Virus record (IMG/VR): IMGVR_UViG_3300006484_000050
Span: 1 to 25,016 of that record
DNA: 25,016 nucleotides
From: a virus
Strand: one strand, 5' to 3'
Shown: piece after piece, positions 4,935 to 22,300 of the stretch
Position numbering within the stretch: the stretch's first letter is position 1
How the letters are laid out: every line of letters starts with the position of its first letter
The notes under the pieces: model-generated
Seen by the model: only the letters and a program-made list of their open reading frames with translations
Database searches by the model: none
Told to the model about the DNA's origin: nothing
Translations under genes and position numbers: made by a program

Positions 4935-4945
4935 AATATTTATAA
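4935..4945 (+). promoter_or_regulatory. Putative late-type promoter motif (AATATTTATAA)
   Basis: An exact copy ending 10 nt before the ATG at 4956, just after the stop of the preceding gene. It would serve the unit 4956-6392, which ends at the terminator near 6443. Confidence 0.6.
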
Positions 4946-4955
4946 TAAAAAATAG

Positions 4956-5537: not shown

Positions 5538-5782
5538 TGCCTTATATAGATAACTCCAATATTCGTACGTTCTCTAAAGACGTAAATGCTATGGATTTAA
5601 TATGGCATATGGATGACGAAGATAGAAATATTGAAGTATTAGAAGGTAAAGGTTGGCAATTTCAACGAGACAACGAATTACCTTTGGTACTTAAAGAAGG
5701 AGATCGTATATTTATACCACAACATCAAGTACATAGAGTAATAAAAGGTACAACTGATTTAAAAATACGAATAAATGATTAA
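5537..5782 (+). CDS. Mini-cupin phage protein
   Basis: Encodes 81 residues. The pattern RNIEVLEGKGWQFQ...LPLVLKEGDRIFIPQHQVHRVIKG matches the second cupin motif G(X)5PxG(X)2H with G55, P61 and H66; the usual Gly after P is His here. The first cupin metal-binding motif (HxH) is not evident, so metal binding is uncertain. Small single-cupin proteins of this sort are common in T4-like marine phages. They may be virion parts or small-molecule binders; the role is unknown. The start overlaps the preceding stop (TAATG) and the end overlaps the next ATG by 8 bp. Confidence 0.7.
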   Translation: MPYIDNSNIRTFSKDVNAMDLIWHMDDEDRNIEVLEGKGWQFQRDNELPLVLKEGDRIFIPQHQVHRVIKGTTDLKIRIND

Positions 5783-6392: not shown

Positions 6393-6442
6393 CATACAGA
6401 CTGATTCATAGCCAGTCGCGATTACAAAAAACAGATATCTGT

Positions 6443-6469
6443 GGCATCTCATTTGGAGATGCCATTTTT
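6443..6469 (+). terminator. Intrinsic terminator
   Basis: The stem GGCATCTC (6443-6450) pairs with GAGATGCC (6456-6463) around the loop ATTTG, followed by ATTTTT. It closes the unit 4956-6392. The loop TTTG doubles as the possible -33 element of the promoter for 6503. Confidence 0.85.
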
Positions 6470-6483
6470 CTTTCGTATATTAA
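6452..6483 (+). promoter_or_regulatory. Putative Bacteroidota-type promoter overlapping a terminator
   Basis: TTTG (6452-6455, in the terminator loop), a 20-nt spacer, then TATATTAA (6476-6483), similar to the Bacteroidota -33 TTTG / -7 TAnnTTTG form. It lies 19 nt upstream of the dehydrogenase ATG. The segment CTTTCGTATATTA (6470-6482) recurs exactly at 8256-8268. Function inferred. Confidence 0.5.
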
Positions 6484-6502
6484 TGTATTAATAAGAATAT
6501 AA

Positions 6503-7816
6503 ATGAGCAAAAACGTATTAATTATTGGAGCAGGTGTAGCAGGTGTAAATGCTGCTACTAAGTTAGTTGACAACAACTTTGATGGTAAAATAACTATTGT
6601 TGATATGGGTAAAAATCCATATAATAGACCATACGATGATGTTATGACTGGTTTTTTAGGTGCTGGAGGATGGAGTGATGGTAAGTTAACTTATCATACA
6701 TCTATTGGAGGTCAGTTATCTAAATATTGTGGTGAGGATAAGGCGATGGAGTTGATGGATCAAGTTATTGAAAACTTTAAACGTTTCCACCCTAAACCAG
6801 AGGAAGTACAGTGTTCTAATCCAGTTGCTGAACCTGATTTTATTAAACCACACTTTGGTTTACGTTTATTTCCTGTATGGCATGTTGGTACAGATTATTT
6901 ACATGAAATAGGTAAAAACTGGTTTGATTATTTAGAATCTAAAGGTGTAGAGTTTATTTGGGAAACTAAAGTATCAGATATTGATTTTGATAATAATATA
7001 GTTCGTTCATCACTATTAAATGGTGGTGAAGAGATTAGTATTAGTTATGATGAACTTATATTTGGTGTAGGTAAATCAGGTATTGACTTTGGTAAACAAC
7101 TAGCAGAAAAATACAAACTACCAACCGAACCTAAATCAGTACAAATAGGTGTTCGATTCGAAGCACCACAAAAACACTTCCAAAAACTAATAGATGTATC
7201 ATACGATTTTAAGTTATATAGAAAGTTTGAGGATAAAGGTGTATCACTTCGCTCATTTTGTACTAACAATAATGCGGCTTATGTGGCCGTAGAACAAACA
7301 TATGGTAATCATACCTACAACGGTCATGCCAAAAAGGATGAAGCATTTAGAAACGATATGACTAACTTTGGTATTTTAATGGAAATACAAGGTATAGAAA
7401 AACCATTTGATTGGTCAAGAAACGTAGTTAAATCATTACAATCATCTGATAATACAGGTTTATATTACTCACCAACCAGAAAACAATCCACAACATCTGA
7501 AGGTATAAAAGTATCTGCTACACAAATCGACACAGGGGGATATAGAGATGTTGTTGAGATGTTTGATGGATATTTTACATATATTGAAGATTTTATTGAT
7601 GGTATGAAAAAAGTATTCCCAACACTTAAAGACGATTGGGGTATGTATATTCCGGAAGTAAAATATCTATCACCAGAACCACTAGTAAACTATAACGATT
7701 TATCATTAACCAAATATAACAACGTACACTTTGTAGGAGATGCTTTATCCGCAAGAGGTATAACAGTATCAGGCGCACAAGGTATCTACGTTATTGAATC
7801 ACTATTAAACAACTAA
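6503..7816 (+). CDS. FAD-dependent dehydrogenase-like flavoprotein (cargo gene)
   Basis: Encodes 437 residues. A Rossmann FAD-binding start is clear: VLIIGAGVAGVNAA, with G9, G11 and G14, then an acidic end to the second strand (KITIVDMG). The C-terminus has the second FAD contact region (NNVHFVGDALSARGITVSGAQG). The central part (GVGKSGIDFGKQLAEKY, VQIGVRFEAP) resembles the FAD-utilising dehydrogenase group usually called COG2509; that name is from memory. Substrate and electron partner are unknown. It is unusual in the middle of a T4-like structural region. It has no late-type motif, starts after a terminator with a Bacteroidota-like promoter, and is followed 3 nt later by a small gene, then a second terminator. 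This fits a moron-like metabolic cargo unit. Confidence 0.8.
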   Translation: MSKNVLIIGAGVAGVNAATKLVDNNFDGKITIVDMGKNPYNRPYDDVMTGFLGAGGWSDGKLTYHTSIGGQLSKYCGEDKAMELMDQVIENFKRFHPKPEEVQCSNPVAEPDFIKPHFGLRLFPVWHVGTDYLHEIGKNWFDYLESKGVEFIWETKVSDIDFDNNIVRSSLLNGGEEISISYDELIFGVGKSGIDFGKQLAEKYKLPTEPKSVQIGVRFEAPQKHFQKLIDVSYDFKLYRKFEDKGVSLRSFCTNNNAAYVAVEQTYGNHTYNGHAKKDEAFRNDMTNFGILMEIQGIEKPFDWSRNVVKSLQSSDNTGLYYSPTRKQSTTSEGIKVSATQIDTGGYRDVVEMFDGYFTYIEDFIDGMKKVFPTLKDDWGMYIPEVKYLSPEPLVNYNDLSLTKYNNVHFVGDALSARGITVSGAQGIYVIESLLNN

Positions 7817-7819
7817 GTT

Positions 7820-8221
7820 ATGACTATTGAACAAAGACAAAAACACTATGAAAACGAGTTAAAGGATTATTTCGATAGAAATGATGATATGCCTTTAATA
7901 AACGCTATGCGTAAGTTTAAAAAACGTTTAACTGAATGGGAGGATGGTTATGAACCCATCATCGATGAAAGTGAATATCCTAAAACACGCAAACTAGTTA
8001 ACCAAGTAGATGGTACAATCGCTATATGTTGGGGTAACAAACCCCATAACTGGGATGGACCAGCATTATTTCCTAAAGGAGATAAAAAACAAGGCGAATA
8101 TTACCTATATGGTATTCGTTATGAAGCAGAAGAGTGGAAAGAGATGAAGAAACAATGGGAAGGATTGCCTTGGTATAAAACACCAGCTATTCTTATGGAT
8201 GCAGGATCAGCAAGAAACTAA
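7820..8221 (+). CDS. Small unknown protein with 'HNWDGPAL' motif
   Basis: Encodes 133 residues. The N-terminal 50 residues are charged and helical. The second half holds GTIAICWGNKPHNWDGPALF and GEYYLYGIRYEAEEWKEMK, a DGPA...Y(Y)xxG pattern found in scattered phage proteins of unknown role, then WEGLPWYKTPAI. It begins 3 nt after the dehydrogenase stop and is closed by the terminator at 8235, so the two genes form one transcript. A functional link to the flavoprotein is suggested only by that pairing. Confidence 0.65.
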   Translation: MTIEQRQKHYENELKDYFDRNDDMPLINAMRKFKKRLTEWEDGYEPIIDESEYPKTRKLVNQVDGTIAICWGNKPHNWDGPALFPKGDKKQGEYYLYGIRYEAEEWKEMKKQWEGLPWYKTPAILMDAGSARN

Positions 8222-8234
8222 AACATATGGGAGT

Positions 8235-8259
8235 GGGGTTGGATTTACCAACCCCCTTT
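8235..8259 (+). terminator. Intrinsic terminator
   Basis: GGGGTTGG (8235-8242), loop ATTTA, CCAACCCC (8248-8255), then CTTT. The stem is strong but the T-tract is short. It closes the unit 6503-8221. Confidence 0.8.
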
Positions 8260-8269
8260 CGTATATTAT
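8239..8269 (+). promoter_or_regulatory. Putative Bacteroidota-type promoter overlapping a terminator
   Basis: TTG (8239-8241, in the terminator stem), a 20-nt spacer, then TATATTAT (8262-8269). It has the same geometry as the promoter at 6452 and shares the exact 13-mer CTTTCGTATATTA. The kinase ATG is 25 nt downstream. Confidence 0.5.
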
Positions 8270-8294
8270 GGTAATATAGATAAAAAGTAATAAT

Positions 8295-8822
8295 ATGAAA
8301 ATAGGATTAACAGGTACTATGAGTGTTGGTAAAACAACATTAGTTAACGCTTTAAAAAAGAATAAGTTATTTAAAGATTATAATTTTGCTACTGAGCGTA
8401 GTGAATATTTAATGAATTTAGGTATTCCATTAAATACTGATTCTACATTAAAAGGTCAAACAGTATTTTTAGCTGAGCGATGTGCTGAATTGATGCAGGA
8501 TAATATTATAACTGACAGAACTATTATAGATGTATTAGCATTTACTCAATCAGCTAAATCAGTTGACCAAGTAGAGTATGATTTATTTGAACAATATGCT
8601 ATTCAGTTTTTAAGAGATTATGATCATATATTTTATATTTCTCCTGAGGGTATGCCTATTGAAGATAATGGTGTTAGAGAAACTGATGAACATTTTAGAG
8701 ATGTTATTGATTTTAGTATTATGAATTTATTAAAACGATGGGGTCATAGAATAGATAACGTAACTGAAATTAGTGGTACTACTGAACAACGTATCAAACA
8801 AATCGAAGAAGCCATATCTTAA
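8295..8822 (+). CDS. NadR-like P-loop kinase/ATPase
   Basis: Encodes 175 residues. A Walker A motif sits at residues 7-15 (GTMSVGKTT). A catalytic or Walker-B-like DR pair follows at D74-R75 (NIITDRTIIDVLAFT). A lid-like segment with R128 and R135 (NGVRETDEHFRDVIDF) comes next. The order and spacing match the small AAA_28/NadR-kinase-type family common in phages, which includes nicotinamide-riboside kinases. Length fits a single kinase domain with no NMN adenylyltransferase part. The substrate is not readable from the sequence; NAD salvage or nucleoside phosphorylation are possibilities. It is monocistronic, after its own terminator-linked promoter and just before a late-type motif. Confidence 0.75.
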   Translation: MKIGLTGTMSVGKTTLVNALKKNKLFKDYNFATERSEYLMNLGIPLNTDSTLKGQTVFLAERCAELMQDNIITDRTIIDVLAFTQSAKSVDQVEYDLFEQYAIQFLRDYDHIFYISPEGMPIEDNGVRETDEHFRDVIDFSIMNLLKRWGHRIDNVTEISGTTEQRIKQIEEAIS

Positions 8823-8823
8823 T

Positions 8824-8834
8824 AATATTTATAA
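8824..8834 (+). promoter_or_regulatory. Putative late-type promoter motif (AATATTTATAA)
   Basis: An exact copy starting 2 nt after the kinase stop codon and ending 13 nt before the ATG at 8848. It would drive 8848-11484, the coiled-coil protein, spanin-like pair and terminase. Confidence 0.6.
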
Positions 8835-8847
8835 CAAAATATAATAA

Positions 8848-9249
8848 ATGAAACGTTCAGAATTAAAATCATACATCAAAGAGCAAATAGTATCTACTTT
8901 AGAAGAAGCTACATTTCAAGCGGATAAAAGTGATCAATCATCAATAGATGCAGCTAAGAAAGCAGCTAGTAAAGATGATGTAATCAAAATATCAGAAATC
9001 GATGATGAAGAAGGTGATAAAGAAGCAACGAAAGGTGCTAGAAAAAATGCCTCAAAAACTAAACGTTTAGATGCTAAGATTAAAGCTTTACAACAAATCG
9101 AAGCTGATATGAAGACTGAACTTAAAGCCTTTAAATCAGCTGAAGGTGATGATGAAAAAAATGCGGCTAAAAAACAGCTAAAAAGATTAACTGATTTGAA
9201 AAAAGAAGCAAAAGCTGAAATTAAAAAATTAGAAAGTGAAATTATTTAA
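8848..9249 (+). CDS. Lys/Glu-rich coiled-coil protein with targeting-like N-terminus
   Basis: Encodes 133 residues. The start MKRSELKSYIKEQIVSTLEE with A21 belongs to the recurrent ELKxxIKxxI N-terminal class of this window. It offers two (I/L)xE sites, after E12 and after E20. The remainder is an Ala/Lys/Glu-rich helix (residues ~75-133) likely to form a coiled coil, after an acidic stretch around residue 55. T4 internal and core proteins have a similar composition, so a packaged or core protein is the best guess. It overlaps the next gene's GTG start by 14 bp. A small terminase cannot be excluded by position, but no DNA-binding motif is visible. Confidence 0.6.
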   Translation: MKRSELKSYIKEQIVSTLEEATFQADKSDQSSIDAAKKAASKDDVIKISEIDDEEGDKEATKGARKNASKTKRLDAKIKALQQIEADMKTELKAFKSAEGDDEKNAAKKQLKRLTDLKKEAKAEIKKLESEII

Positions 9250-9577
9250 TAAGTATACTCTATTAGTACTATTATTAATATCAATAGGTTTTAATTATTA
9301 TGAAATTTTTATTGATGATCCTTTATATATTAAACAATATGAAGATACAATTACTAAGTTAGAGACTGAAATAGATAGTATAAACATTAATAATATAGGT
9401 TTAAAATCACAAGTATTAGCCTTAGAAGATAAAATTGATACTTTAGATTTAGAATTAACAAATATAGAAGATAAAAGAAAATCAATAATCAGATCATATG
9501 AAATATATTTACAGCAAATTACTGATCTTAATGATTCTGAACTTGAACGTTGGTTACTCTCAAGATACAACAATTGA
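9236..9577 (+). CDS. Putative inner-membrane spanin (Rz-like)
   Basis: Encodes 113 residues. One N-terminal transmembrane helix (residues ~8-26, YTLLVLLLISIGFNYYEIF) is preceded by a short basic segment, giving N-in topology. A long coiled coil follows (~35-95), and the end is SELERWLLSRYNN. Size and layout match Rz-type i-spanins. The next gene starts inside this one in another frame (80 bp overlap), the hallmark of Rz/Rz1 pairs. The start is a GTG inside the preceding gene; no in-frame ATG exists. No spanin homology is recognised, so this rests on topology and gene arrangement. An alternative is an unrelated phage membrane coiled-coil protein. Confidence 0.55.
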   Translation: MKLFNKYTLLVLLLISIGFNYYEIFIDDPLYIKQYEDTITKLETEIDSININNIGLKSQVLALEDKIDTLDLELTNIEDKRKSIIRSYEIYLQQITDLNDSELERWLLSRYNN

Positions 9578-9899
9578 ACTTGAATATGATATCGCCCGAT
9601 TAGTTATTGAAGATTTAATTAAAGGTGATGCATCTAAAGAAGAATTGTTTTTATCTAAAGATCAAATAAAAGTTTTAGAATCAAAGATATCCCTTAAAGA
9701 TAGTATTATCCTAAAAAAGAATGATATTATTGGGAATTATGAAAGTATTATGGGTAAACAAACTGAACAACTTTCATCAATAAAAGACCTTTCCAAACAA
9801 CTACAACTTGATTTAAAAAAACAAAAAGCCAAAACCCAACTATTTAAACTAGGTGGGACAGCTGTTCTAATAGGAGCGGTAATATTAACTATATTGTAG
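9498..9899 (+). CDS. Secreted coiled-coil protein overlapping the Rz-like gene
   Basis: Encodes 133 residues. Residues 1-22 form a classic signal peptide (MKYIYSKLLILMILNLNVGYSQ), with the YSQ|D-type end common in Bacteroidota secreted proteins. A coiled coil follows (~50-110), then a C-terminal hydrophobic helix (LGGTAVLIGAVILTIL). Unlike Rz1 it has no lipobox Cys, and its C-terminal helix would place it in the inner membrane rather than the outer. It could be a variant spanin subunit or another lysis protein. The first 80 bp lie inside the upstream gene in a different frame, yet still encode a good signal peptide, which supports a real gene. Four nt separate it from the terminase ATG. Confidence 0.6.
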   Translation: MKYIYSKLLILMILNLNVGYSQDTTIELEYDIARLVIEDLIKGDASKEELFLSKDQIKVLESKISLKDSIILKKNDIIGNYESIMGKQTEQLSSIKDLSKQLQLDLKKQKAKTQLFKLGGTAVLIGAVILTIL

Positions 9900-9903
9900 T
9901 AAT

Positions 9904-11484
9904 ATGGGTCAATTAAGTATAAACGAAATAATAAAGGCGGAATACATAAAATGCGCTAATAACCCAGTACATTTCTTTAAAAAATACTGCTATATCTCTC
10001 ACCCACAACGAGGTAAAATATTATTTAGTCTCTACCCATTTCAAGAAAAAGCATTACAGTTAATAGATAAAAACCCATATTCTATTATATTAAAATCTAG
10101 ACAGTTAGGTATATCAACCCTATCTGCAGGTTACGCTTTATGGTTAATGACATTTCATGAGAATAAAACAGTAATGGCTTTAGCCACTACACAAGCAACA
10201 GCCAGAAACTTAGTACAGAAAGTGCAGTTTATGTATGAGAACCTACCCAGCTGGTTAAAGGTTCCATCTATAGAAAACAATAAGTTATCACTTAAGTTAG
10301 CAAACTCATCAAGAATATTAGCAAAATCTTCATCACCAGATGCCGCAAGATCAGAAGCCGTTTCTTTACTGATTATTGATGAAGCAGCGTTCGTTGAAAA
10401 CGTAGCCGAAACTTGGGCTTCCGCACAACAAACTTTAGCAACGGGTGGTGGTGCTATAGTATTATCTACACCAAACGGCACAGGTAACTGGTTCCATCAG
10501 ATGTGGGTTAAAGCAGAATCAGCACAAAACGATTTTTTACCTATTAAACTACCTTGGAATCTACACCCAGAACGAGATCAAGCTTGGAGAGATAAACAAG
10601 ATGAACTATTAGGTGATCCTAGATTAGCCGCACAAGAGTGTGATTGCGATTTTTCATCATCTGGTAATACTGTATTTTATGGTGAATATATTGATTACAT
10701 AAATAATAATACAGCGAAAGACCCAGTTGAAAAACGAGGTACAGATGAAAACCTATGGATTTGGGAATACGCTGATTACACTAAAGATTATATAATAACA
10801 GCAGACGTTGCTCGAGGAGATGGAAGAGATTTTTCTACTGCTCATGTTATGGATGTTGAAAGTAATACCCAAATAGCAGAATATAGAGGCCATTTATCAA
10901 CTAAGGATTTTGGTAATTTTTTAGTTGGGCTAGCAACCGAATATAATAACGCTTTACTAGTAATAGAAAACGCATCTATTGGTTGGGCTACTATACAACA
11001 AGTAATAGAAAGAAACTATGCAAATCTTTACTACACACAACGTGGAGAAGCAAGTGTTGATTCGTATTTTGATCCATATATGGATAATAGCAGGATGACT
11101 GCTGGTTTTACTATGTCAACTAAAACAAGACCTGTGGTGGTTCAAAAGTTTGTTGAATATGTAACTGACAGAAGTGTTACAATCCAATCTAAACGATTAG
11201 TTGAAGAGATGAAAGTTTTTATTTGGATGAATGGTAAAGCAGAAGCACAAACTGGCTATAACGATGATTTAATAATGGCGTTTGGTATGGCAATGTATAT
11301 TAGAGATACAGCATTAAAATTTAGACAAAGAGGTTTGGATATAACTAAGGCCTCACTATCAAATATAGGAGTAAATAAAGTAGCATATCAAGGTGGTTTT
11401 AACGCAGTTAATCAAAGTAACGAAAACCCCTACAAACTAGATAATGGGATAGGCGGCCAAGAGGATATAGGTTGGCTCTTATAA
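9904..11484 (+). CDS. Terminase large subunit (gp17-like)
   Basis: Encodes 526 residues; T4 gp17 has 610. The packaging ATPase has a deviant Walker A KSRQLGIST (64-72), where terminases rely on the SRQLG lead-in. It also has Walker B SLLIIDE (D159, E160) and coupling motif STPNG (189-192). The RNase-H-like nuclease follows, with likely metal ligands D301 (IITADVARGDGRD), E355 (LLVIENAS) and D454/D455 (YNDDL). It cuts concatemeric DNA and pumps it through the portal encoded next. A small terminase subunit is not recognised upstream. The gene is preceded by the spanin-like pair in one operon and followed by a late-type motif at 11483. Confidence 0.96.
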   Translation: MGQLSINEIIKAEYIKCANNPVHFFKKYCYISHPQRGKILFSLYPFQEKALQLIDKNPYSIILKSRQLGISTLSAGYALWLMTFHENKTVMALATTQATARNLVQKVQFMYENLPSWLKVPSIENNKLSLKLANSSRILAKSSSPDAARSEAVSLLIIDEAAFVENVAETWASAQQTLATGGGAIVLSTPNGTGNWFHQMWVKAESAQNDFLPIKLPWNLHPERDQAWRDKQDELLGDPRLAAQECDCDFSSSGNTVFYGEYIDYINNNTAKDPVEKRGTDENLWIWEYADYTKDYIITADVARGDGRDFSTAHVMDVESNTQIAEYRGHLSTKDFGNFLVGLATEYNNALLVIENASIGWATIQQVIERNYANLYYTQRGEASVDSYFDPYMDNSRMTAGFTMSTKTRPVVVQKFVEYVTDRSVTIQSKRLVEEMKVFIWMNGKAEAQTGYNDDLIMAFGMAMYIRDTALKFRQRGLDITKASLSNIGVNKVAYQGGFNAVNQSNENPYKLDNGIGGQEDIGWLL

Positions 11485-11493
11485 TATTTATAA
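11483..11493 (+). promoter_or_regulatory. Putative late-type promoter motif (AATATTTATAA)
   Basis: An exact copy that begins on the terminase stop codon and ends 12 nt before the portal ATG at 11506. It would drive the portal gene. Confidence 0.6.
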
Positions 11494-11505
11494 TAATAAA
11501 CAGCG

Positions 11506-13392
11506 ATGGCAGATAAAGGATTATTTCCAAGATTAAAAAGATTATTTTCAACTGATGTGATTATTCGCAATACGGGTGGGAATCAAATTACAACTATTGA
11601 TACAAATACAATCCAAACATCAGGTGAGTTTGAAACTAATTCATTAGTTGATAGGTATGGTAGATTATACGCTGGTAACCCATCATCACTATATGGGGCA
11701 CAGTTCAATATGAACTACCAATACTTACGCACTCAGTTATATTCAGAATATGATTTAATGGATCAAGATGCTATTATAGCATCTGCATTAGATATTATAG
11801 CAGACGAATCAACACTTAAAAACGATATGGGTGAAGTATTATCCATACGTTCATCTAATGAAGACATACAAAAAATATTATACAACCTATTTTACGATGT
11901 TTTAAACATTGAGTTTAATATGTGGAGTTGGGTTCGTCAAATGTGTAAGTATGGTGATTTTTTCCTCAAAATGGAAATATCAGAAAAGTTTGGTGTATAC
12001 AACGTTAGACCTTATACAGCATTTCAAATAGCACGTAAAGAAGGATTCAACCCTGAAAACCCAGAAGAAGTAGTATTTGAATTTAATCCAGATGGTTTTA
12101 CAGGGGGTGACTCAGGTTACTATACTGCACCCAGTCAAACTCCATCTCCAAACGTTATTAGATTTGATAATTATGAAATGGCTCATTTTAGACTTATATC
12201 GGATGTTAACTACCTACCTTACGGCCGTTCTTACGTAGAACCAGCGCGTAAACTGTACAAACAATATTCGTTAATGGAAGACGCTATGTTAGTACATCGA
12301 ATCGTTAGAGCCCCAGAAAAACGCACTTTTTACGTTAACGTTGGAGCTATACCTCCAAACGAAATAGATGCGTTTATGCAAAAAACAGTATCGTCACTAA
12401 AACGTACTCCTTATGTTGATCCAAAAACAGGACAATATAACTTAAAGTATAACATGCAAAATATGTTAGAGGATTTTTATATTCCTGTACGTGGTAATGA
12501 TACATCAACTCGTATTGAAACTACACCAGGATTAACATATGATGGTATCCAAGACGTAGAATATTTAAGAGATAAACTATTTGCTGCCCTAAAAGTACCT
12601 AAAGCATTTTTAGGTTATGAAGCCGATTTAGAAGGTAAAGCAACATTAGCAGCGGAGGATATTAGGTTTGCTCGTACTATAGATCGTATACAACGAATCC
12701 TTATATCTGAACTTAATAAAATAGCATTAGTTCACCTATATGCTCAAGGATATAGAGATGAAGGGTTGACTAACTTTTCATTAGAAATGACTACACCTAG
12801 TATCATATACGATCAAGAAAAGATTGAACTATTAAAATCTAAAACTGAACTAGCACAACAAATGTTAGATCAAAAACTATTACCAACAGATTGGATCTAT
12901 GATAATGTATTCCATTTTAGTGAAGACCAATATGATGAGTATAGAGATTTAATCAGGGAAGATACTAAACGTGGATTCAGATTAAAACAAATAGAGGAAG
13001 AAGGTAATGACCCAGTTGAAACAGGTAAATCGTATGGTACCCCACATGATCTAGCCTCACTATATGGTAAAGGTAGATCATACAGTGATCCAGGAAACGT
13101 ACCTGTTGGTTACAACAACGATAAAGAGGATGTGGGTCGTCCTAAAGACAAAACACGTCGTAATAAACAAGATTCAAACTTCGGTAAAGACAGATTAGGT
13201 TCACAAAATAAAGATAACGAAAGTAACTCTATTAAACCTAACTTCAAAGGTGGTCCATTAGCATTAGAAGATGCTAAAACTACCTACATAAAAAACCAAC
13301 ACCTATTTGAGGGAATGGATAAAAAGAAAGTAACAGTTGAAAATAAATCTAAAAACCCATCGTATTTAGACGAATCTCAACTTAAAGGTTAA
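11506..13392 (+). CDS. Portal protein (gp20-like)
   Basis: Encodes 628 residues; T4 gp20 has 524. The core (residues ~40-490) has gp20-type blocks: DRYGRLYAGNPSSLYG, YDLMDQDAIIASALDIIADE, the clip/wing region and a run EADLEGKATLAAEDIRFARTIDRIQ near 365-390. It forms the dodecameric head vertex through which DNA is packaged and to which the neck binds. The last ~120 residues are a hydrophilic, Lys/Asn/Gly-rich extension that probably does not belong to the conserved fold and accounts for the extra length. In T4 gp18 and gp19 lie between gp17 and gp20; here the two are adjacent. Confidence 0.93.
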   Translation: MADKGLFPRLKRLFSTDVIIRNTGGNQITTIDTNTIQTSGEFETNSLVDRYGRLYAGNPSSLYGAQFNMNYQYLRTQLYSEYDLMDQDAIIASALDIIADESTLKNDMGEVLSIRSSNEDIQKILYNLFYDVLNIEFNMWSWVRQMCKYGDFFLKMEISEKFGVYNVRPYTAFQIARKEGFNPENPEEVVFEFNPDGFTGGDSGYYTAPSQTPSPNVIRFDNYEMAHFRLISDVNYLPYGRSYVEPARKLYKQYSLMEDAMLVHRIVRAPEKRTFYVNVGAIPPNEIDAFMQKTVSSLKRTPYVDPKTGQYNLKYNMQNMLEDFYIPVRGNDTSTRIETTPGLTYDGIQDVEYLRDKLFAALKVPKAFLGYEADLEGKATLAAEDIRFARTIDRIQRILISELNKIALVHLYAQGYRDEGLTNFSLEMTTPSIIYDQEKIELLKSKTELAQQMLDQKLLPTDWIYDNVFHFSEDQYDEYRDLIREDTKRGFRLKQIEEEGNDPVETGKSYGTPHDLASLYGKGRSYSDPGNVPVGYNNDKEDVGRPKDKTRRNKQDSNFGKDRLGSQNKDNESNSIKPNFKGGPLALEDAKTTYIKNQHLFEGMDKKKVTVENKSKNPSYLDESQLKG

Positions 13393-13401
13393 TATTTATA
13401 A
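13391..13401 (+). promoter_or_regulatory. Putative late-type promoter motif (AATATTTATAA)
   Basis: An exact copy that begins on the portal stop codon and ends 15 nt before the ATG at 13417. It would drive the core/protease unit 13417-16514. Confidence 0.6.
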
Positions 13402-13416
13402 CTAAATATATATTTG

Positions 13417-14268
13417 ATGCGCATCAAACATTCAAAGTATAAGAATACGGGTATCCTATTTGAATTACTCGTACGACAGATCACGGCAGATACACTTAAA
13501 GACGGTGAATCACCATCTGTTGACTTATTAAAAAAGTACTTCTTTAAAAGTGAACTAGGTAAGGAACTTAAGTTATACGAAAGTATAACTAAATCAAAAG
13601 TCTTAAGTGAAAATCAAGCATCTACCTTCATTTCTACTGTATTAGAACAGTCAACCAAGTTGAATCGTTCTACATTACGTAAAGAAAAATATAACTTAAT
13701 CAAGGAAATTAAAAGTTTATATAACATAAACGAATTCTTTGCTACTAAAGTAAAAAACTATACACAATTTGCTTCAATCTATACGTTAATCGAATCTCAA
13801 AATTCAAAAAACATAACGGATACAGAACAGATTGTAAATAATAAAGTAAATTTATTAGAACACCTAACTAAATCAGTAGCATCTGATGAGGTTAAAAACG
13901 ATGTTTTAAGTGAATTCCAAACATACGATAAAGATACAAGAATCTTAACCTACAAAGTTCTTTTAGAAAAGTTTAATGACAAATATGATGATCTATCTAA
14001 CGATCAGAAGTCAGTTCTTAAAGAGTTTATCGAATCAGTAGATTCAACCCCCAAACTACGAAACTTTTACAACTCAAAAATCAAAGAACTTAAGTATGCA
14101 GTATTAACTGAAGCTAAAGCACTTAACGATAAAGTTGTAAAAATCAAATTAGTAGAAGTTTCTAAACTACTTACAGAACTTAAGAAAACTGATAAAGTAA
14201 ATACAGACAACTTAGTTGATTTACTTCAGTATTATGAGTTGATTAAAGAAATAAAGCTTACTAAATGA
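13417..14268 (+). CDS. Conserved helical protein between portal and protease, unknown function
   Basis: Encodes 283 residues from the ATG at 13417; a TTG three bases upstream would add one residue and is less likely. It is largely helical and basic. The start MRIKHSKYKNTGILFELLVRQITAD and the block NRSTLRKEKYNLIKEIKSLY are familiar from uncultured marine myoviruses, always just downstream of the portal. There is no obvious T4 counterpart at this place. The position within the head-core unit suggests a role in prohead assembly or portal attachment, which is inference. It ends in an ATGA overlap with the next gene. Confidence 0.75.
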   Translation: MRIKHSKYKNTGILFELLVRQITADTLKDGESPSVDLLKKYFFKSELGKELKLYESITKSKVLSENQASTFISTVLEQSTKLNRSTLRKEKYNLIKEIKSLYNINEFFATKVKNYTQFASIYTLIESQNSKNITDTEQIVNNKVNLLEHLTKSVASDEVKNDVLSEFQTYDKDTRILTYKVLLEKFNDKYDDLSNDQKSVLKEFIESVDSTPKLRNFYNSKIKELKYAVLTEAKALNDKVVKIKLVEVSKLLTELKKTDKVNTDNLVDLLQYYELIKEIKLTK

Positions 14269-14666
14269 AAAAATCTGAATTAAAAAAAGAAATACGTGAA
14301 CGTATTTTAGAAAAAAAGTGTAAAACTGCTGATATAGACGAAATGTCTACATCTGGTGGTGCTGGTGCTTACAACACACCATATGCCTTTAAACTTAAAA
14401 AGAAAGATAAGGATTTAAGTGAAGCTTTAAATGGAGACCAACAAGAAGCCTTGATGGACTTACAAAATATATTAGATAGAGCTGCTCAATTAGGAGATGA
14501 AGCTAAACAAATAATAAGTGATACATTTCCGGAAGAACTTAGAGGAGCTGAAGCATACGATATATTTAATTTTGGTTCTAGTTCTAATAGCTATGATAAT
14601 ACTTTAGAATCCCTTATTAGTGACATAGAACAACGTTTTTCAGAAGACGAAGGAGATTTAGACTAA
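14265..14666 (+). CDS. Small putative head-core protein with targeting-like start
   Basis: Encodes 133 residues. The start MKKSELKKEIRERILEKK is the clearest case of the ELKxxIRxxI N-terminal class, with an I-R-E site at residues 10-12. Next comes EMSTSGGAGAYNTPYAFKLKK, a Gly-rich segment seen in many marine phage structural proteins. The C-terminal ~75 residues are acidic and helical. It is coupled by an ATGA overlap to the previous gene and 1 nt from the next. Its position between portal and protease suggests a core protein comparable to T4 gp67/gp68, but no sequence match is claimed. Confidence 0.65.
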   Translation: MKKSELKKEIRERILEKKCKTADIDEMSTSGGAGAYNTPYAFKLKKKDKDLSEALNGDQQEALMDLQNILDRAAQLGDEAKQIISDTFPEELRGAEAYDIFNFGSSSNSYDNTLESLISDIEQRFSEDEGDLD

Positions 14667-14667
14667 T

Positions 14668-14919
14668 ATGTATAAGTATAGAATAACAGAAAACGATCAA
14701 GCAAAAGCTGAAAAGTTTCAAAAAGAACGTATCGATGCGTTTTCTGACATTGAAAAACAGTTAGTTGATGTAGTTAAAAACATCAGAAAAGCTAAAATAG
14801 AAACAATAGCATACTATAGAGATAATCCAGATAAGTTTGCTATAGTATATGGAACAGATTTAATACAAGATTATCTCAACGATATAAAAATATTATTAAC
14901 ACCCGACAAAGATGAGTAA
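14668..14919 (+). CDS. Small unknown protein in the head-core unit
   Basis: Encodes 83 residues, helical, with many Lys/Asp/Ile (IEKQLVDVVKNIRKAKIETIAYY). No motif is recognised. By size and place (between portal and protease) it is comparable to T4 gp67/gp68 core proteins, without visible sequence support. It overlaps the next gene by 8 bp. Confidence 0.6.
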   Translation: MYKYRITENDQAKAEKFQKERIDAFSDIEKQLVDVVKNIRKAKIETIAYYRDNPDKFAIVYGTDLIQDYLNDIKILLTPDKDE

Positions 14920-15904
14920 AGAAAAACTAAACGAGAACTATGTTGATTTACAACCAGTAAATAAGTGGGAATCAGCTCCTGAAGAAAATTATACTACAAA
15001 ATTCAAAGCATTTCTAGCTGAAGAAGCTAAAATTGAAGAGAAAAAAGTAACTAAAGAGGTTGAAGAAGTTCAATCACATGGATTCGACTATAGCGATACA
15101 AAAAACATTGATAACCTAAACGGGCAAGAGTTTATGAATGGTGTTTACTTTGAATCAAAAAACAACCCATCTAAAACTTTAGAAGAAGTTCGTGAAGTAG
15201 TAGCTAAAAATCTAACTAAAGATTCTTTACACTATGTTAAAGAAGGACAGTTTGGAGAAAAAGGTGTTGGATACGTAGAACCAGTACAAGAAGAAGCAGC
15301 AGGTGATCATGCCTCAAGTGGATATGGTACTAAACTAAAAGCGTTAGTCAAAGAATCACTTATGGGTGGTATGGTAGTAACTACAGGTAATCCAAACTCT
15401 ATAGCAGCTCAACAAGCTCAAGTAATCAATAGTATGATGAACGAGGATGAAAGCATCTACGATGAAGATATGCCGATGGATGAAGACGCTAGAACCGACG
15501 CTGAAGAAGAAGGATACTTAGATGGTATGCGTGATGAAAAGTACGACATGAGTGAAGAACTCGAAGAAGAGAAAGAAAAAGACGAAGTAAAAGATAAAAG
15601 CGGTAAAGTGAAAAAAGAAAGCGTAGCACAAACATTATCTAGAATAGATAAAGTAGGTACTGGTGTTGCTTTAGAAGCTAAAATAGTTGCTATCGACGAA
15701 GAAATTTCAAAACGTAACGAACAACTTAGTATGTTAGACGAAAACGAAGCTATGGCGGCGTTGATGGATAAAGGTAAACTAAAAGAACTACGTAAAGAAG
15801 TAAAACTACTTGAAAAAGCTAAAGGTAAATACAATAAAATGTATGAAAAAGCTACAGGTAACAAAAGAGTAGAAGTTGAAATCGTAGACGAAACCGAAAT
15901 TTAA
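14912..15904 (+). CDS. Acidic putative prohead-core protein
   Basis: Encodes 330 residues. The N-terminus (MSKEKLNENYVDLQPVNKW) and AFLAEE near residue 34 offer LxE sites. Residues ~70-135 contain a patterned segment (NLNGQEFMNGVYFESKNNPSKTLEEVREVVAKNL) and AAGDHASSGYGTKLKALVKESL. Residues ~190-235 are acidic low complexity, followed by a coiled coil to ~315. Composition and location immediately upstream of the protease fit a core or scaffold-associated protein cut during maturation. It has no close T4 counterpart that I can name. One nt separates it from the protease ATG. Confidence 0.65.
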   Translation: MSKEKLNENYVDLQPVNKWESAPEENYTTKFKAFLAEEAKIEEKKVTKEVEEVQSHGFDYSDTKNIDNLNGQEFMNGVYFESKNNPSKTLEEVREVVAKNLTKDSLHYVKEGQFGEKGVGYVEPVQEEAAGDHASSGYGTKLKALVKESLMGGMVVTTGNPNSIAAQQAQVINSMMNEDESIYDEDMPMDEDARTDAEEEGYLDGMRDEKYDMSEELEEEKEKDEVKDKSGKVKKESVAQTLSRIDKVGTGVALEAKIVAIDEEISKRNEQLSMLDENEAMAALMDKGKLKELRKEVKLLEKAKGKYNKMYEKATGNKRVEVEIVDETEI

Positions 15905-15905
15905 G

Positions 15906-16514
15906 ATGTCAAAATCCGTACTTATAGAAACTTCGTTGTTTCAACCGGTCTCATCTCTGGTTGAAAATCGAGGTGGTAGTGGTAATATGGTAGTTGAAGG
16001 TATTTTAACTACTGTTAACCAAGAAAATGGTAATAGTCGTGTTTATCCAAAAGAACTATGGGAGCGTGAGATGAATAAGTATTCTCAACTCATCAAAGAA
16101 AACAGAGCATTGGGAGAACTCGATCACCCAGAATCATCAATAATCAACTTACAAAACGTATCACATAATATTAAATCCGCTAAATGGGATGGTGATCACG
16201 TTATAGGTAAAATAGAAATACTACCAACACCATCAGGTAACATTTTAAAAGCATTAATTGAAAATGGTATCACAGTAGGTGTATCATCTCGTGGTATGGG
16301 TTCAGTTAAACAAATAGGTGAAACTTTAGAAGTACAAGATGATTTTGAGTTATTATGTTGGGACTTTGTTTCAACACCCTCTAACCCAGGATCTTGGATG
16401 GCTGAAACTAGATCACTTAACGAATCCATAAACAATTCAACATACCAATATGGTAAAGTTGATGAGATAATTAGGGAAATACTATGTGCTAAAGGCACTT
16501 GCCCTATATTTTAA
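15906..16514 (+). CDS. Prohead core protease (gp21-like)
   Basis: Encodes 202 residues; T4 gp21 has 212. The herpesvirus-protease-like fold is indicated by NGNSRVYPKELW, the catalytic-His block RALGELDHPES (H74) and the nucleophile block VGVSSRG (S127 or S128). Beta segments GKIEILPTPSG and WDFVSTPSN follow. In T4-like phages it cuts scaffold, core and capsid proteins after (L/I)xE, then itself; a possible self-cleavage site is VLIE|T at residue 8. The C-terminal end IIREILCAKGTCPIF is Cys-containing and unusual. It is last in its unit, before the terminator at 16553. Confidence 0.93.
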   Translation: MSKSVLIETSLFQPVSSLVENRGGSGNMVVEGILTTVNQENGNSRVYPKELWEREMNKYSQLIKENRALGELDHPESSIINLQNVSHNIKSAKWDGDHVIGKIEILPTPSGNILKALIENGITVGVSSRGMGSVKQIGETLEVQDDFELLCWDFVSTPSNPGSWMAETRSLNESINNSTYQYGKVDEIIREILCAKGTCPIF

Positions 16515-16552
16515 GATAATTCCAACGGACGCTACCGATGGGCAGGAAGATT

Positions 16553-16579
16553 AACCTCACAGTAATGTGGGGTTTTTTT
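16553..16579 (+). terminator. Intrinsic terminator
   Basis: AACCTCAC (16553-16560), loop AGTAAT, GTGGGGTT (16567-16574, one G-T wobble), then a T run to 16579. It separates the core/protease unit from the scaffold-capsid unit. Confidence 0.85.
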
Positions 16580-16608
16580 GTATTTTAGTATCTTTTAATA
16601 TACGTATC
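16577..16608 (+). promoter_or_regulatory. Putative Bacteroidota-type promoter at a terminator
   Basis: TTTG (16577-16580, at the end of the T run), a 20-nt spacer, TACGTATC (16601-16608, matching TAnn and part of TTTG). It is the best candidate for transcription of scaffold and capsid; the leader to 16702 would be ~90 nt. No TATTTATAA motif was found between 16515 and 16701. Confidence 0.4.
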
Positions 16609-16662
16609 ATCATACAATATGGCATTTACTTATATGTCATCAAAACAAAACTAACCATTATT

Positions 16663-16680
16663 ACACTACTTAATTAGTGT
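16663..16680 (+). promoter_or_regulatory. Small inverted repeat in the scaffold-gene leader
   Basis: ACACTA (16663-16668), spacer CTTAAT, TAGTGT (16675-16680), 21 nt before the scaffold ATG. It could be an RNA hairpin in the leader or a protein site; no T run follows, so it is not a terminator. Confidence 0.4.
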
Positions 16681-16701
16681 ATTTCCAAAAACAAATTTAG
16701 G

Positions 16702-17829
16702 ATGTCTAACAGAACAATGCTTAAAGAAGCAATTGCGGACGCAAAAACCATTAAGGACACTGCTATCGCTAATGCTAAAGCCGCTCTAGAAGAATCTTTT
16801 ACACCACACATCAAAGATATGCTTTCAGCTAAACTCCAGGAAATGGATAAGGATGAAGATCTAGATGAAGGTAAAAAAGAAGACTCTAAAGACAAGGTTG
16901 AAGAAATGGACGCACCTTCTTACGATCGTAAGAGTGGCGAATCATTAGATCCAACTCCTGCTAAAGTAGGTCAAACTACTATCCAGGAAGAGGAAAAAGA
17001 ACTCGACGAAATGTTAGCTGAACTTGAATCTGAAATCGAAGAAGGTAAGGAAATAGAAGAATCTAAAGAGGACTCTAAAGACGAACTTAAAGAAGATGAC
17101 AGCATAGAGGAAGCAGACGAAGACGAAGAGGGAGAAATCGATGTAGAAGACGAAGGAGAAATCTCCTTAGACGACGAAGAAATTGACTTAGAAGATATGT
17201 CAGAAGATGACCTTAAAGGGTTTATCGAAGATGTAATCAAAGATATGGTCAGTGACGGTGAATTGGAGCCAGGTGATGACTTTGATTCTGAAGAAGGTGA
17301 AGAAGAAATGGATGCAGACGACATGGAAATTGATGTTGATGCTGATGTTGAAATCGCTGAAGAATTAGAATTGGATGAAGCTAAAGGTGAAGACAAAAAA
17401 GACGAATCTATTGAAGAAGCTTCTAAAAAAGAAGATGACAAAATAGAGGAAGCTAAAGACGAAGACAAAGAAGTTAAAGAAGCACTAGAAGAAGTTAATA
17501 AACTTAGAGCTGAACTTAACGAAGTAAATCTTCTAAACGCCAAACTTCTCTACACAAATAAACTTTTTAGAGCTAAGAACTTATCTGAAGCACAAAAAGT
17601 AAAAGTTTTAGAATCGTTTGATAACGCTACAACAGTAAAAGAAACTAAACTAGTATTTGACACTTTAAGTGAAGGTATTAAATCTGCACCTAAAAAATCA
17701 ATTAACGAAGTTAAAGGATCTGCCTCTAAAGTAGTAGGATCTATCACAAAAACGGTTAAACAACCAATTGTAGAATCTAACGATATGGTTGCTCGCTTTC
17801 AAAAGCTAGCAGGTATCGCTAAAAATTAA
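16702..17829 (+). CDS. Prohead core scaffold protein (gp22-like)
   Basis: Encodes 375 residues; T4 gp22 is 269. The start includes MLKEAIADAK at residues 6-15, similar to T4 gp22's MLKEQLIAEAQ, so M6 is an alternative start. Residues ~50-265 are an extreme D/E-rich region with runs such as EIDVEDEGEISLDDEEIDLEDM. The C-terminal part (~270-340) carries the gp22-type helix LRAELNEVNLLNAKLLYTNKLF and SEAQKVKVLESFDNATTVKE. It forms the internal core on which the capsid assembles and is degraded by the protease, with LKE|A among many possible sites. It is 5 nt from the capsid gene and shares its transcript. Confidence 0.88.
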   Translation: MSNRTMLKEAIADAKTIKDTAIANAKAALEESFTPHIKDMLSAKLQEMDKDEDLDEGKKEDSKDKVEEMDAPSYDRKSGESLDPTPAKVGQTTIQEEEKELDEMLAELESEIEEGKEIEESKEDSKDELKEDDSIEEADEDEEGEIDVEDEGEISLDDEEIDLEDMSEDDLKGFIEDVIKDMVSDGELEPGDDFDSEEGEEEMDADDMEIDVDADVEIAEELELDEAKGEDKKDESIEEASKKEDDKIEEAKDEDKEVKEALEEVNKLRAELNEVNLLNAKLLYTNKLFRAKNLSEAQKVKVLESFDNATTVKETKLVFDTLSEGIKSAPKKSINEVKGSASKVVGSITKTVKQPIVESNDMVARFQKLAGIAKN

Positions 17830-17834
17830 TTAAA

Positions 17835-19463
17835 ATGAGTTTAAACACTTTATTAGAAAGCGCTAACCCATACCAATCACTTCAGAGTGATTCAGCGCGC
17901 CTTGCAGGCAAATGGGAAAAAACAGGTCTTTTAGAAGGTCTTAAAGGAACAAACAAAAACAACATGTCTATGTTGTTGGAAAGCCAAGCTAAACAACTAG
18001 TTGTTGAGACTTCTCAAACAGGTGGTGGAACTGCATCTCAAGGTACTTTTACTGCAGGTGTAGGTGAGCAATGGGCTGGAGTAGCTCTTCCATTAGTACG
18101 TAAAGTATTCGGACAAATTGCTGCTAAAGAATTTGTTTCTGTACAACCAATGAATCTTCCTTCTGGACTAGTATTTTATCTAGATTTCCAATACGGAACA
18201 ACTAAAGGAACACACACTGCTGGTGATTCACTATATGGTGACCAAGGTGGAAATGAGCCTTTTGGAAACACTAACACTGGTGGTTTTTATGGTGCTGGTA
18301 GATTTGGATACTCAATCAACAACACTGGATCAGCTGCTGGAGCATCTGGAACTGTAGCTGCTGCATCTTGGGCTGACTTGAACTTCAATAGTGACTATTC
18401 TGCATCAGCAGCTGCTGGTGATTATGTTACTATTGCTATCGCAAAAACAGACCTACCTAACTTAGACGAAACAGGAGTAAGAGGATTTACTATTGCATCT
18501 GCTGATGGAGTATTAAATGCATCTAACAACGTACCTGAGTTTACTACTATCGATGCTAATAACGTAACATTTGTTGCTTTAGACGCTGACAAAGGAAACG
18601 TAGCAACTGGAGCTGTAGTTACTTACCAACTACAACCAACTGATCAGTTTAGAGGAGATTTCGAAGACGGAAATAACGCAATCAACGGAGACAACTCTCC
18701 AATCGCTATTCCAGAAATCAATGTACAAATGAAATCATCTGCTATCGTTGCGAAAACTCGTAAATTGAAAGCAGTATGGACACCAGAATTTGCACAAGAT
18801 TTGAATGCATATCACTCAATCGATGCTGAAGCAGAACTTACTTCAATCTTAAGTGAGTACATCTCTTTAGAAATCGACTTAGAGATTCTTGATATGTTAT
18901 TATCATCTGCAGGTGCAGGTACTGAGTACTGGAGTGCTATTAACAACAAAGGTATCAATGCTGCTGCAACAGGATTTACTGAAGACCTAGGCTTCTATAA
19001 CAGCCAAGGACAGTGGTTCCAAACTTTAGGAACTAAAATCCAAAAACTATCTAACATCATTCACCAGAAAACTCTACGTGGAGGAGCTAACTTCTTAGTA
19101 TGTTCTCCAGCTGTAGGTACTATCTTAGAAAGTATCCCAGGATACGCTGCTGATAGTGATGGTGATGTAAGTGCTGCAAACTATGCGTTTGGTGTACAAA
19201 AAGTAGGGGCTCTAAACGGTCGTTACAAAGTATACAAAAACCCATACATGACTGAAAATCAAGTATTACTTGGATTCAGAGGTACTCAATTCTTAGAAAG
19301 TGGTGCTGTATTTGCTCCATACATTCCATTAATTATGACTCCATTAGTATACGATCCAGAAACGTTTACACCACGTAAAGGTTTACTTACTCGTTATGCT
19401 AAGAAAGTAGTACGTCCTGAATTTTATGGTAAAATTGAGATCGCTGGTCTTAATTCTCTATAA
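17835..19463 (+). CDS. Major capsid protein (gp23-like)
   Basis: Encodes 542 residues; T4 gp23 has 521. HK97-fold markers of the gp23 family are present: VQPMNLPSGLVFYLDFQYG (~103-121), AKTRKLKAVWTPEFAQDLNAYHSIDAEAEL and the end YAKKVVRPEFYGKIEIAG. The N-terminal ~60 residues form a removable delta region with LxE candidates at LLE|G (E34), LLE|S (E49) and VVE|T (E58); in T4 the cut is after E65. Codon use is regular and C/A-ended (e.g. frequent gct, act), fitting high expression. It ends with a strong terminator at 19486. Confidence 0.95.
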   Translation: MSLNTLLESANPYQSLQSDSARLAGKWEKTGLLEGLKGTNKNNMSMLLESQAKQLVVETSQTGGGTASQGTFTAGVGEQWAGVALPLVRKVFGQIAAKEFVSVQPMNLPSGLVFYLDFQYGTTKGTHTAGDSLYGDQGGNEPFGNTNTGGFYGAGRFGYSINNTGSAAGASGTVAAASWADLNFNSDYSASAAAGDYVTIAIAKTDLPNLDETGVRGFTIASADGVLNASNNVPEFTTIDANNVTFVALDADKGNVATGAVVTYQLQPTDQFRGDFEDGNNAINGDNSPIAIPEINVQMKSSAIVAKTRKLKAVWTPEFAQDLNAYHSIDAEAELTSILSEYISLEIDLEILDMLLSSAGAGTEYWSAINNKGINAAATGFTEDLGFYNSQGQWFQTLGTKIQKLSNIIHQKTLRGGANFLVCSPAVGTILESIPGYAADSDGDVSAANYAFGVQKVGALNGRYKVYKNPYMTENQVLLGFRGTQFLESGAVFAPYIPLIMTPLVYDPETFTPRKGLLTRYAKKVVRPEFYGKIEIAGLNSL

Positions 19464-19485
19464 TCTAGGAATTACATTTTTTATT

Positions 19486-19518
19486 AAAAGGGGGTTGACT
19501 TATGTCAACCCCTTTTTT
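19486..19518 (+). terminator. Strong intrinsic terminator after the capsid gene
   Basis: A 14-bp stem (AAAAGGGGGTTGAC, 19486-19499, with GTCAACCCCTTTT, 19504-19517; one G-T pair), loop TTAT, ending in T residues. It closes the scaffold-capsid unit. Confidence 0.92.
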
Positions 19519-19525
19519 ATATTTA
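19495..19525 (+). promoter_or_regulatory. Putative Bacteroidota-type promoter overlapping a terminator
   Basis: TTG (19495-19497, in the terminator stem), a 20-nt spacer, TATATTTA (19518-19525), which matches TAnnTTTG except for the final base. It is the best match of the four terminator-linked promoters and lies upstream of the late-type motif at 19546. Confidence 0.5.
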
Positions 19526-19545
19526 CGTATAGTAGATAACTCTCT

Positions 19546-19556
19546 CATATTTATAA
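19546..19556 (+). promoter_or_regulatory. Putative late-type promoter motif (CATATTTATAA)
   Basis: Contains the full TATTTATAA core but ends 44 nt before the ATG at 19601, farther than other copies (10-20 nt). It would give the fibre gene tandem promoters. Confidence 0.5.
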
Positions 19557-19600
19557 CATATATTAATAAGTCATAATAGTATTAGAAAAAGAAATACCAA

Positions 19601-22277: not shown

Positions 22278-22288
22278 AGTATTTATAA
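22278..22288 (+). promoter_or_regulatory. Putative late-type promoter motif (AGTATTTATAA)
   Basis: Contains the full TATTTATAA core and ends 12 nt before the ATG at 22301. It would drive the neck/tail-completion genes 22301-24985. Confidence 0.6.
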
Positions 22289-22300
22289 TAAAACATACAT

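Follow-up and report, generated by a model that had tools for sequence, protein, structure and literature searches.

Introduction

Middle promoters of phage T4 combine a MotA box with the -10 element of the host, and T4 late promoters have the consensus TATAAATA; the overlap of an intrinsic terminator with a promoter is known as a general notion. Here, we analyzed a 25,016-base viral contig that encodes a T4-like head module (IMGVR_UViG_3300006484_000050; this whole stretch is called the window below) and describe two recurrent elements, a bipartite early-type element (class B) and a late-type box (class A). Our reading, to which we assign a probability of about 0.76 on sequence grounds, is that class B would be an early promoter read by the host RNA polymerase and class A a late promoter read with a phage factor, and that class B is superimposed on a terminator at 6441-6486 and, in close relatives only, at 8235-8267.

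Class A resembles the gp55-dependent T4 late promoter in being a single AT-rich box that has no favored TTG near -33, is strand-specific, and, in a T4-like phage, stands upstream of head and tail genes. It differs in sequence, ATAT(T/G)TATAA versus TATAAATA, and a gp55 homolog was not found in the contigs searched. The available portions of two papers give a related T4 late box, 5'-TATAAAT-3' (PMC3037559), and describe the T4 late system as lacking a -35 element (PMC2988020).

Class B shares with the T4 middle promoter an extended box near -30 and a position before replication and nucleotide genes, but it carries TTTGGCTACCC instead of a MotA box; homologs of MotA and AsiA were not searched for. 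Its resemblance to the Bacteroidota primary-sigma promoter (-33 TTTG / -7 TAnnTTTG) lies in a TTTG-like upstream half, a downstream half that starts TAnnTT, and a spacer of 20 nt by which TTG comes to lie near -33, and the closest isolates of the phage group infect Flavobacterium. Unlike that promoter, class B ends in TATATT followed mostly by TA or AA rather than TTTG, has TCG, TCT, or TCA before TATATT, and is strict in its -33 half and spacing. As far as the available part of the source goes, Flavobacterium johnsoniae has a -7 box TAHHTTTG and a weak -33 motif, much less evident than that of class B (PMC6847099).

In the fused element, as in other overlaps of terminator and promoter, the hairpin and the next promoter have sequence in common; here, however, one half of the promoter keeps its place in the apex of a stem that varies, and further hairpins in the phage group show this design too. 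Neither a promoter map of this group nor such a fused element was among the open-licence literature matches listed. Compared by major capsid protein (MCP) and terminase, Flavobacterium phages of the genus Immutovirus (immuto below) are the closest among annotated isolates, with 58.5% protein identity across 100% of each query, and a host of Flavobacterium type is therefore likely. One scan returned at least 597 relatives of the MCP. The two classes would provide a promoter grammar with predicted timing for a large, mostly uncultured group of T4-like phages, represented here mainly by metagenome contigs, and this grammar is testable in the cultured relative immuto and its host, Flavobacterium sp. 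LMO8.

Results

The early-type element has a rigid 20-nt spacer

As a sequence pattern, class B is a real bipartite element, TTTGG-N16-TTTCGTATATT or TTG-N20-TATATT, whose 20-nt spacing is rigid. Taken over 50 unique sites, the consensus is approximately TTTGG-(A/C/T)TaCC...TTTCGTATATT, and a TTTG-like element stands at the distance expected of a -33 half, with T preceding TTG in 34 of the 50. Of 40 coding-strand copies of CGTATATT from seven related contigs, 22 had TTG at N20 and three at N19, against two or fewer at each other spacing. The same preference was observed for intergenic TATATT in seven contigs, where 22 of 64 coding-strand copies had TTG at N20 and four had it at N19, versus none at N20 among 55 on the opposite strand. 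More widely, TTG-N17-TCGTATATT gave 74 matches, spread over 20 of the 23 contigs; all but one (73) fell on a single strand per contig, and the pattern written backwards gave none. Some contigs were covered in part (60,000 bases each of G002 and G019, 40,000 bases of G005, and two stretches each of G021 and G022). The immuto genome (NC_055915), which served as an independent test, shows the same spacing: TTG precedes 39 of 135 coding-strand copies of TATATT at N20 and no more than seven at any other distance, and three of 152 copies on the opposite strand at N20. CG before TATATT is optional there (TCA 11, TCT 10, and TCG 9 of 39). Two points count against taking these numbers at face value. 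Orthologous sites are common to many contigs and the pooled counts are not independent; furthermore, TTG-N20-TCGTATATT also occurs within coding sequence, for example at window positions 5684-5712, and a match alone is therefore no proof.

The window is almost base for base the start of an 89,479-base IMG/VR contig, G001 (24,656 31-mers in common). Genes that lie 3' of class B in G001 have product matches to DNA polymerase (with N19), SSB, DnaB helicase (TAGG for TTGG), QueC, GTP cyclohydrolase, thymidylate kinase, and a dehydrogenase; among ten class B-downstream G001 proteins in one scan, a further two fell into families whose function is not known, and three had no match. Class B sites number 18, 16, and 5 in the 0-63, 63-79, and 79-160 kb sections of immuto. 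We also observed that many of the class B boxes at 67-76 kb of immuto, a stretch of small genes, lie directly 5' of an identical start leader, TATATTTAGGTATCAATAATTAAAA.

The host polymerase is the likeliest reader of the early-type element

Class B precedes genes for replication, nucleotide metabolism, and other metabolism, and would most likely be used early by the RNA polymerase of the host, carrying the primary sigma factor. We consider this polymerase the likeliest reader because the small-gene block at 63-79 kb of immuto, which looks immediate-early, is full of class B, and because TTG-N20-TAnnTT resembles the host promoter. The first-pass annotation of this DNA had equated the boxes with the known Bacteroidota -33/-7 promoter. 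Its upstream half, TTG at N20, is indeed present; the TAnnTTTG half is not, in that none of the 50 unique group sites and none of the 39 immuto sites, all chosen by TATATT, reads TATATTTG. The missing TTTG, together with the weak -33 motif of F. johnsoniae, speaks against the host reading and makes use of class B by an unmodified host polymerase uncertain. A separate class of canonical TAnnTTTG early promoters was considered and rejected: intergenic TAHHTTTG occurred six times on the coding and 12 times on the other strand of seven contigs, and a direct scan of immuto for TTG-N18-21-TAHHTTTG found two forward and 12 reverse matches.

As the host -7 box is not completed in class B, a phage factor has to be taken seriously as an alternative reader. 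Class B might be a middle-type element, either with its TTTGGCTACCC half bound by a phage activator or with the whole read by a phage or extracytoplasmic function (ECF)-type sigma factor. A -33 half that is longer and stricter than that of the host (TTGG plus a partial TACC) would fit this proposal, as would the TTG-N20-CGTATATT-type copies in a phage with a listed cyanobacterial host, Microcystis phage Mel-JY01 (PP395634.1). We nevertheless regard it as rather unlikely, given that CG is not required before TATATT in immuto and that the boxes are densest in the immediate-early-looking block; no sigma factor was confidently identified, and an activator was not searched for. In Mel-JY01, which shares MCP and terminase at 51-52%, these copies lie on both strands, and the phage has no TATTTATAA. 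The host assignment of Mel-JY01, or else the host-read model of class B, would merit a second look.

A terminator hairpin and an early-type promoter appear to share bases at 6441-6486

Upstream of a FAD/NAD dehydrogenase-like gene (6503-7816, plus strand; phrog_12409 "dehydrogenase", E 9.6e-26), a hairpin (6441-6465) and its T-rich tract span 6441-6472 on the plus strand. The hairpin is stable, G+C-rich, and followed by the T-tract, as in an intrinsic terminator, and would end the unit upstream of the dehydrogenase gene. The putative early-type promoter overlaps it on the same strand, with the -33-like TTGG (6453-6456) in the hairpin apex and the -7-like half TTTCGTATATTA (6471-6482) containing TATATT at 6476.

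We then followed this element in relatives. Each ortholog scan retained 80 of 101-597 relatives; for the dehydrogenase gene, removal of seven loci without 95 nt of upstream sequence and of 16 duplicates left 57 regions. Of these, 42 contain (T/A)CGTATATT, 35 of them with TTG at N20. The regions used for folding and covariation, 43 in number, had been preselected by T(T/A)G-N20-(T/A)C(G/A)TATATT, and the constancy of the spacing was therefore retested in the 52 of 57 regions that contain TATATT, with no demand for CG or for a spacing. TTG lay at N20 in 43 and at N19 in three of the 52, and at any other spacing in four or fewer; a fold of -9 kcal/mol or lower preceded the box in 50 of the 52.

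The 43 preselected orthologs had a mean minimum free energy of -19.3 kcal/mol versus -6.6 kcal/mol for shuffles. The 3'-arm base 17 nt 5' of TATATT takes part in T-A, C-G, G-C, or A-T pairs across the set, and its neighbor at 16 nt in G-C, G-T, C-G, or A-T pairs. By contrast, none of the 43 leaves the second G of TTGG (TAGG in four) unpaired. Because the stem changes are compensatory and the spacing from TTG to TATATT stays constant, the RNA hairpin and the promoter spacing appear to be jointly under selection on overlapping bases.

The hairpins at fused sites might instead be operators, or leader or processing structures of the mRNA, that overlap the promoter without terminating transcription. 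The T-tract 3' of the stem is poor in some dehydrogenase orthologs, and a stem inside a promoter could be bound by a protein as DNA. However, compensatory changes that include G-T pairs fit pairing in RNA, the hairpins are intergenic and lie at the ends of units, and the five fused hairpins from the immuto scan have, by the criterion of that scan, at least six T in eight positions; we give this explanation little credence.

How such a site might work can be outlined. With TTGG inside the hairpin, the T-tract within the 20-nt spacer, and TATATT after it, a polymerase arriving from the upstream unit would form the hairpin and halt in the T-tract. A new polymerase for the metabolic gene would be recruited by this very stretch and would start about 15 nt beyond the stop. 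A more tentative idea, which we hold to be doubtful, is that the superposition acts as a switch: late traffic from upstream would occlude the early promoter, since the -33 half of the latter is the terminator apex, and so silence the downstream early gene, and the hairpin would block the late polymerase from expressing that gene. If so, the site would be a heritable "terminator-embedded promoter", and selection for RNA structure and for promoter recognition would act on identical bases. Switch or not, compensatory stem changes around a half-site at constant spacing suggest a terminator and a promoter evolving on identical bases, a useful case for studying how polymerase stop and restart are coupled and a possible source of compact parts for Flavobacterium.

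Fusion recurs on other hairpins, yet most terminators are unfused

Next to this element, we considered terminators in general. Among 70 coding-strand candidates with a hairpin plus T-tract in 12 contigs, class B follows 12 at a distance of up to about 40 nt (11 with TTG at N20), class A follows 25 within 110 nt, and 33 lead into neither. The claim of the first-pass annotation that every terminator is fused to a promoter is thus not borne out. A scan of immuto, which demanded at least six T in eight positions, gave 21 terminators, of which five are fused with class B, seven are followed by class A, and nine by neither. Fused sites in immuto lie, for example, at 22066-22097, 64496-64527, and 160360-160391. 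At least two of the nine hairpins followed by neither class (at 37295 and 104391) carry TTG-N20-TATCTT, which occurs on the coding strand of immuto 14 times and on its other strand seven times.

Folds of -9 kcal/mol or lower occupy the 44 nt 5' of the box in 33% of 54 class B sites versus 13% of shuffles. In immuto, nine of 39 class B sites have such a fold, as compared to 0.62 expected from mononucleotide shuffles, and TTG lies within the hairpin in eight of the nine. Fusion thus recurs on further hairpins, yet most terminators are unfused. Three observations temper the association: the 33 candidates that lead to neither box, some of which are in coding sequence; the 0 of 46 other-strand candidates that lead into either box, a weak control because those strands carry few boxes; and an excess of folds at class A as well, 11% versus 2.5% of shuffles (random places, 7% versus 4%).

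The late-type box precedes head and tail genes

The class A box, ATAT(T/G)TATAA, was first visible as ATAT(T/G)TATAAYA in 80 post-MCP regions. ATATNTATAAYA gave 122 matches co-oriented with the MCP gene versus one in the opposite orientation in 15 contigs, and 28 when the pattern was reversed; ATATTTATAA occurs 66 times between genes, where 0.21 would be expected from coding sequence. Across 81 class A boxes, with TTG alone tested, no spacing was favored (two at N20; the highest count was eight at N12). Gaps of 20-35 nt between co-directional genes contain the box in its loose form in 59 of 104 cases, and its reverse complement in one. In G001, class A lies 5' of genes for the portal, tail tube, baseplate hub, and a virion structural protein; one scan of ten class A-downstream proteins left seven with no match.

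In immuto, boxes of the form TATTTATA are the predicted class A, and the core occurs 15, 4, and 29 times in 0-63, 63-79, and 79-160 kb, versus 4, 3, and 4 times on the other strand. From gene content and place, we infer the timing of the two classes: their downstream genes and their distribution in immuto are as one would expect if the classes were early and late promoters. Class A would most likely be used later than class B, by the host polymerase together with a phage factor, as in T4. The 15 class A cores at 0-63 kb of immuto do not sit well with this assignment, nor does the failure to find the factor: profiles of the late sigma factor gp55 (phrog_234 and phrog_12791) matched none of 15 contigs, although the control genomes gave no match either and the contigs may be fragments. 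The T4 consensus itself was rejected as the late box, as TATAAATA had no consistent coding-strand excess (coding/opposite, 0/19 in G001, 8/12 in G003, and 12/10 in G009); its opposite-strand matches include the reverse complement of class A.

A sigma-like protein of 233 amino acids (L106:1105-1806, minus strand) is a candidate phage transcription factor. It has 316 IMG/VR relatives, 26 of which were aligned and are 74-99% identical to the first row. Its match to PF04542 (sigma-70 region 2) had an E value of 5.5e-4, below the cut-off, in one search and 0.038 in another, and its structural model is of low confidence (predicted local distance difference test score, pLDDT, 49.6). Foldseek returned nothing at E of 0.001 or less, but sigma factors make up many of the 50 weaker matches listed, with T4 gp55 at rank 30. 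A sequence search of the PDB yielded nothing convincing (best E 0.59), and a profile comparison gave no match to T4 gp55.

Could class A be an element of translation or of the mRNA leader rather than a promoter? The box starts 21-27 nt 5' of ATG in 76 of 162 distances, and in the part of the F. johnsoniae study available, initiation in Bacteroidota is tuned by A-rich bases upstream of ATG (PMC6847099). We consider this improbable, as the distances from box to ATG span 11 to 391 nt, the box often lies 3' of terminators, and it is rare in short gaps (seven of 260 non-overlapping gene pairs less than 20 nt apart).

Within the window, predicted late-type boxes, all on the plus strand, lie at 563-574 (ATATTTATAATA), 1069-1080 (a variant, ATATTTATCATC), 4936-4947 (ATATTTATAATA, before a virion structural gene at 4956), 8825-8836 (ATATTTATAACA, after the thymidylate kinase gene), 11484-11495 (before the portal gene), 13392-13403 (ATATTTATAACT), and 22279-22290 (GTATTTATAATA, before the head-tail adaptor gene).

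Orthologs divide the four terminator sites of the window

The first-pass annotation had seen one compact element at four terminators. Hairpins of intrinsic-terminator type do start at 6441, 8235, 16553, and 19486, and each is accompanied by a TTG (at 6453, 8239, 16577, and 19495), exactly 20 nt, and a box that begins with TA (at 6476, 8262, 16601, and 19518). When the bases 3' of the hairpins were shuffled as mononucleotides, all four shared N20-TA in two of 20,000 trials, and any common spacing of 17-23 nt arose in 0.0015 (0.15%) of trials; the geometry is thus not equally frequent in shuffled sequence. A shared TTG-N20-TA nevertheless appears to be a weak definition, and the orthologs divide the four sites. 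The full TTGG-N16-TCGTATATT is present only at 6453/6476 and 8239/8262, which also have TTTCGTATATTA in common. Scored on the six near-invariant positions of the host -7 consensus TAHHTTTG, the four boxes reach 4, 4, 4, and 5, and the box at 16601 has a G at -9, which is virtually absent in F. johnsoniae according to the available part of the source (PMC6847099).

At the second site, the hairpin (8235-8255, plus strand) would end the dehydrogenase unit, and a putative early-type promoter, TTGG-N16-TCGTATATTA (8239-8268, plus strand), has its TTGG within the 5' arm; a thymidylate kinase-like gene follows (8295-8822, plus strand; phrog_2107, E 3.1e-23). After short and duplicate loci were dropped, 47 of 80 upstream regions were left for the thymidylate (dTMP) kinase gene, 66 of 80 for the post-MCP region, and 65 of 80 for the post-protease region (66 under a second length rule). 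The 8262 element was found in five of the 47 dTMP kinase regions, its own contig included, all with at least 90% protein identity. Such confinement to close relatives weakens the case for a general design, and the element is probably a recent local acquisition.

The third hairpin (16553-16574, plus strand) lies 3' of the prohead protease gene. Its box, ATACGTATCATC (16600-16611, plus strand; core TACGTATC at 16601), is most likely a variant of the late-type box, because the orthologs keep ATA(T/C)(G/T)TA(T/C) and not TTG-N20-TATATT. The latter was present in none of 65 post-protease regions and a stricter class A form in 17 of 65, whereas ATA(T/C)(G/T)TA(T/C) was present in 27 of 28 recognizable post-protease leaders and in 49 of 66 regions overall, versus 24 for the reversed pattern.

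The fourth hairpin (19486-19517, plus strand) lies 3' of the MCP gene, where relatives have, by eye, hairpins of different sequence. TTG-N20-TATATT at 19495-19523 (plus strand; box TATATTTA at 19518) is a weak early-type candidate that lacks TCG. Its geometry recurs in three of 66 unique post-MCP regions, and class A in its loose form then occurs in 59 of the 66; the 19518 site is therefore doubtful as an early-type element. In the window, too, a late-type box (ATATTTATAACA, 19547-19558, plus strand) follows the MCP terminator.

That chance alone made the four-fold coincidence is very improbable, for although TTG and TA are common in AT-rich DNA and orthologs give no support for 19518 and 16601, it is contradicted by the shuffles, the spacing statistics, and the ortholog covariation at 6476, and more weakly at 8262, and may hold for 16601. 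The proposal of a compact element that ends one unit and opens the next thus holds at 6441-6486, between a late-type and a metabolic unit, and at 8235-8267 in close relatives only. Right at two of its four sites, the first-pass annotation over-generalized and missed the second promoter class.

Context of the window and minor observations

The head module of the window comprises genes for the terminase, portal, prohead protease, MCP, and head-tail adaptor, and a search of a phage collection with window positions 9904-19600 found no near-identical DNA. The predicted units run in the order late-type unit, terminator with class B, dehydrogenase unit, terminator with class B, thymidylate kinase, class A, and late-type units.

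The leader at 16600-16702, from the protease terminator to the next open reading frame (ORF; 16702), is conserved and contains two short hairpins, ATATGGCAT...ATGTCAT and TTACACT...AGTGTA, followed by TTTCC and an A-rich stretch. In an alignment of 27 unique relatives, the hairpin arms seem by eye to covary, with other letters in relatives; z-scores of single-sequence folding were weak (median -0.7).

In relatives such as L010, L025, and L029, a small ORF of about 35 codons (MRYI.TIFISLYSYI or MGILLISLYSYI, by eye) lies 3' of the post-MCP late box; none was seen there in the window. In the G016 contig (loci L187-L193; reverse-complement coordinates 129648-132371), the large terminase matches as two pieces about 1.1 kb apart, as if separated by an intron or an inserted gene.

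In T4, leaders that target proteins to the capsid are cut by the prohead protease. Several of the small ORFs at 1099, 3982, 5976, 8848, and 14265 of the window have similar N-termini, for example MKEITAFRNYLNEG, MKELVTFRKYLNEG, MKRSELKSYIKEQI, and MKKSELKKEIRERI, which might possibly be a common capsid-targeting leader of this kind, cleaved by the prohead protease.

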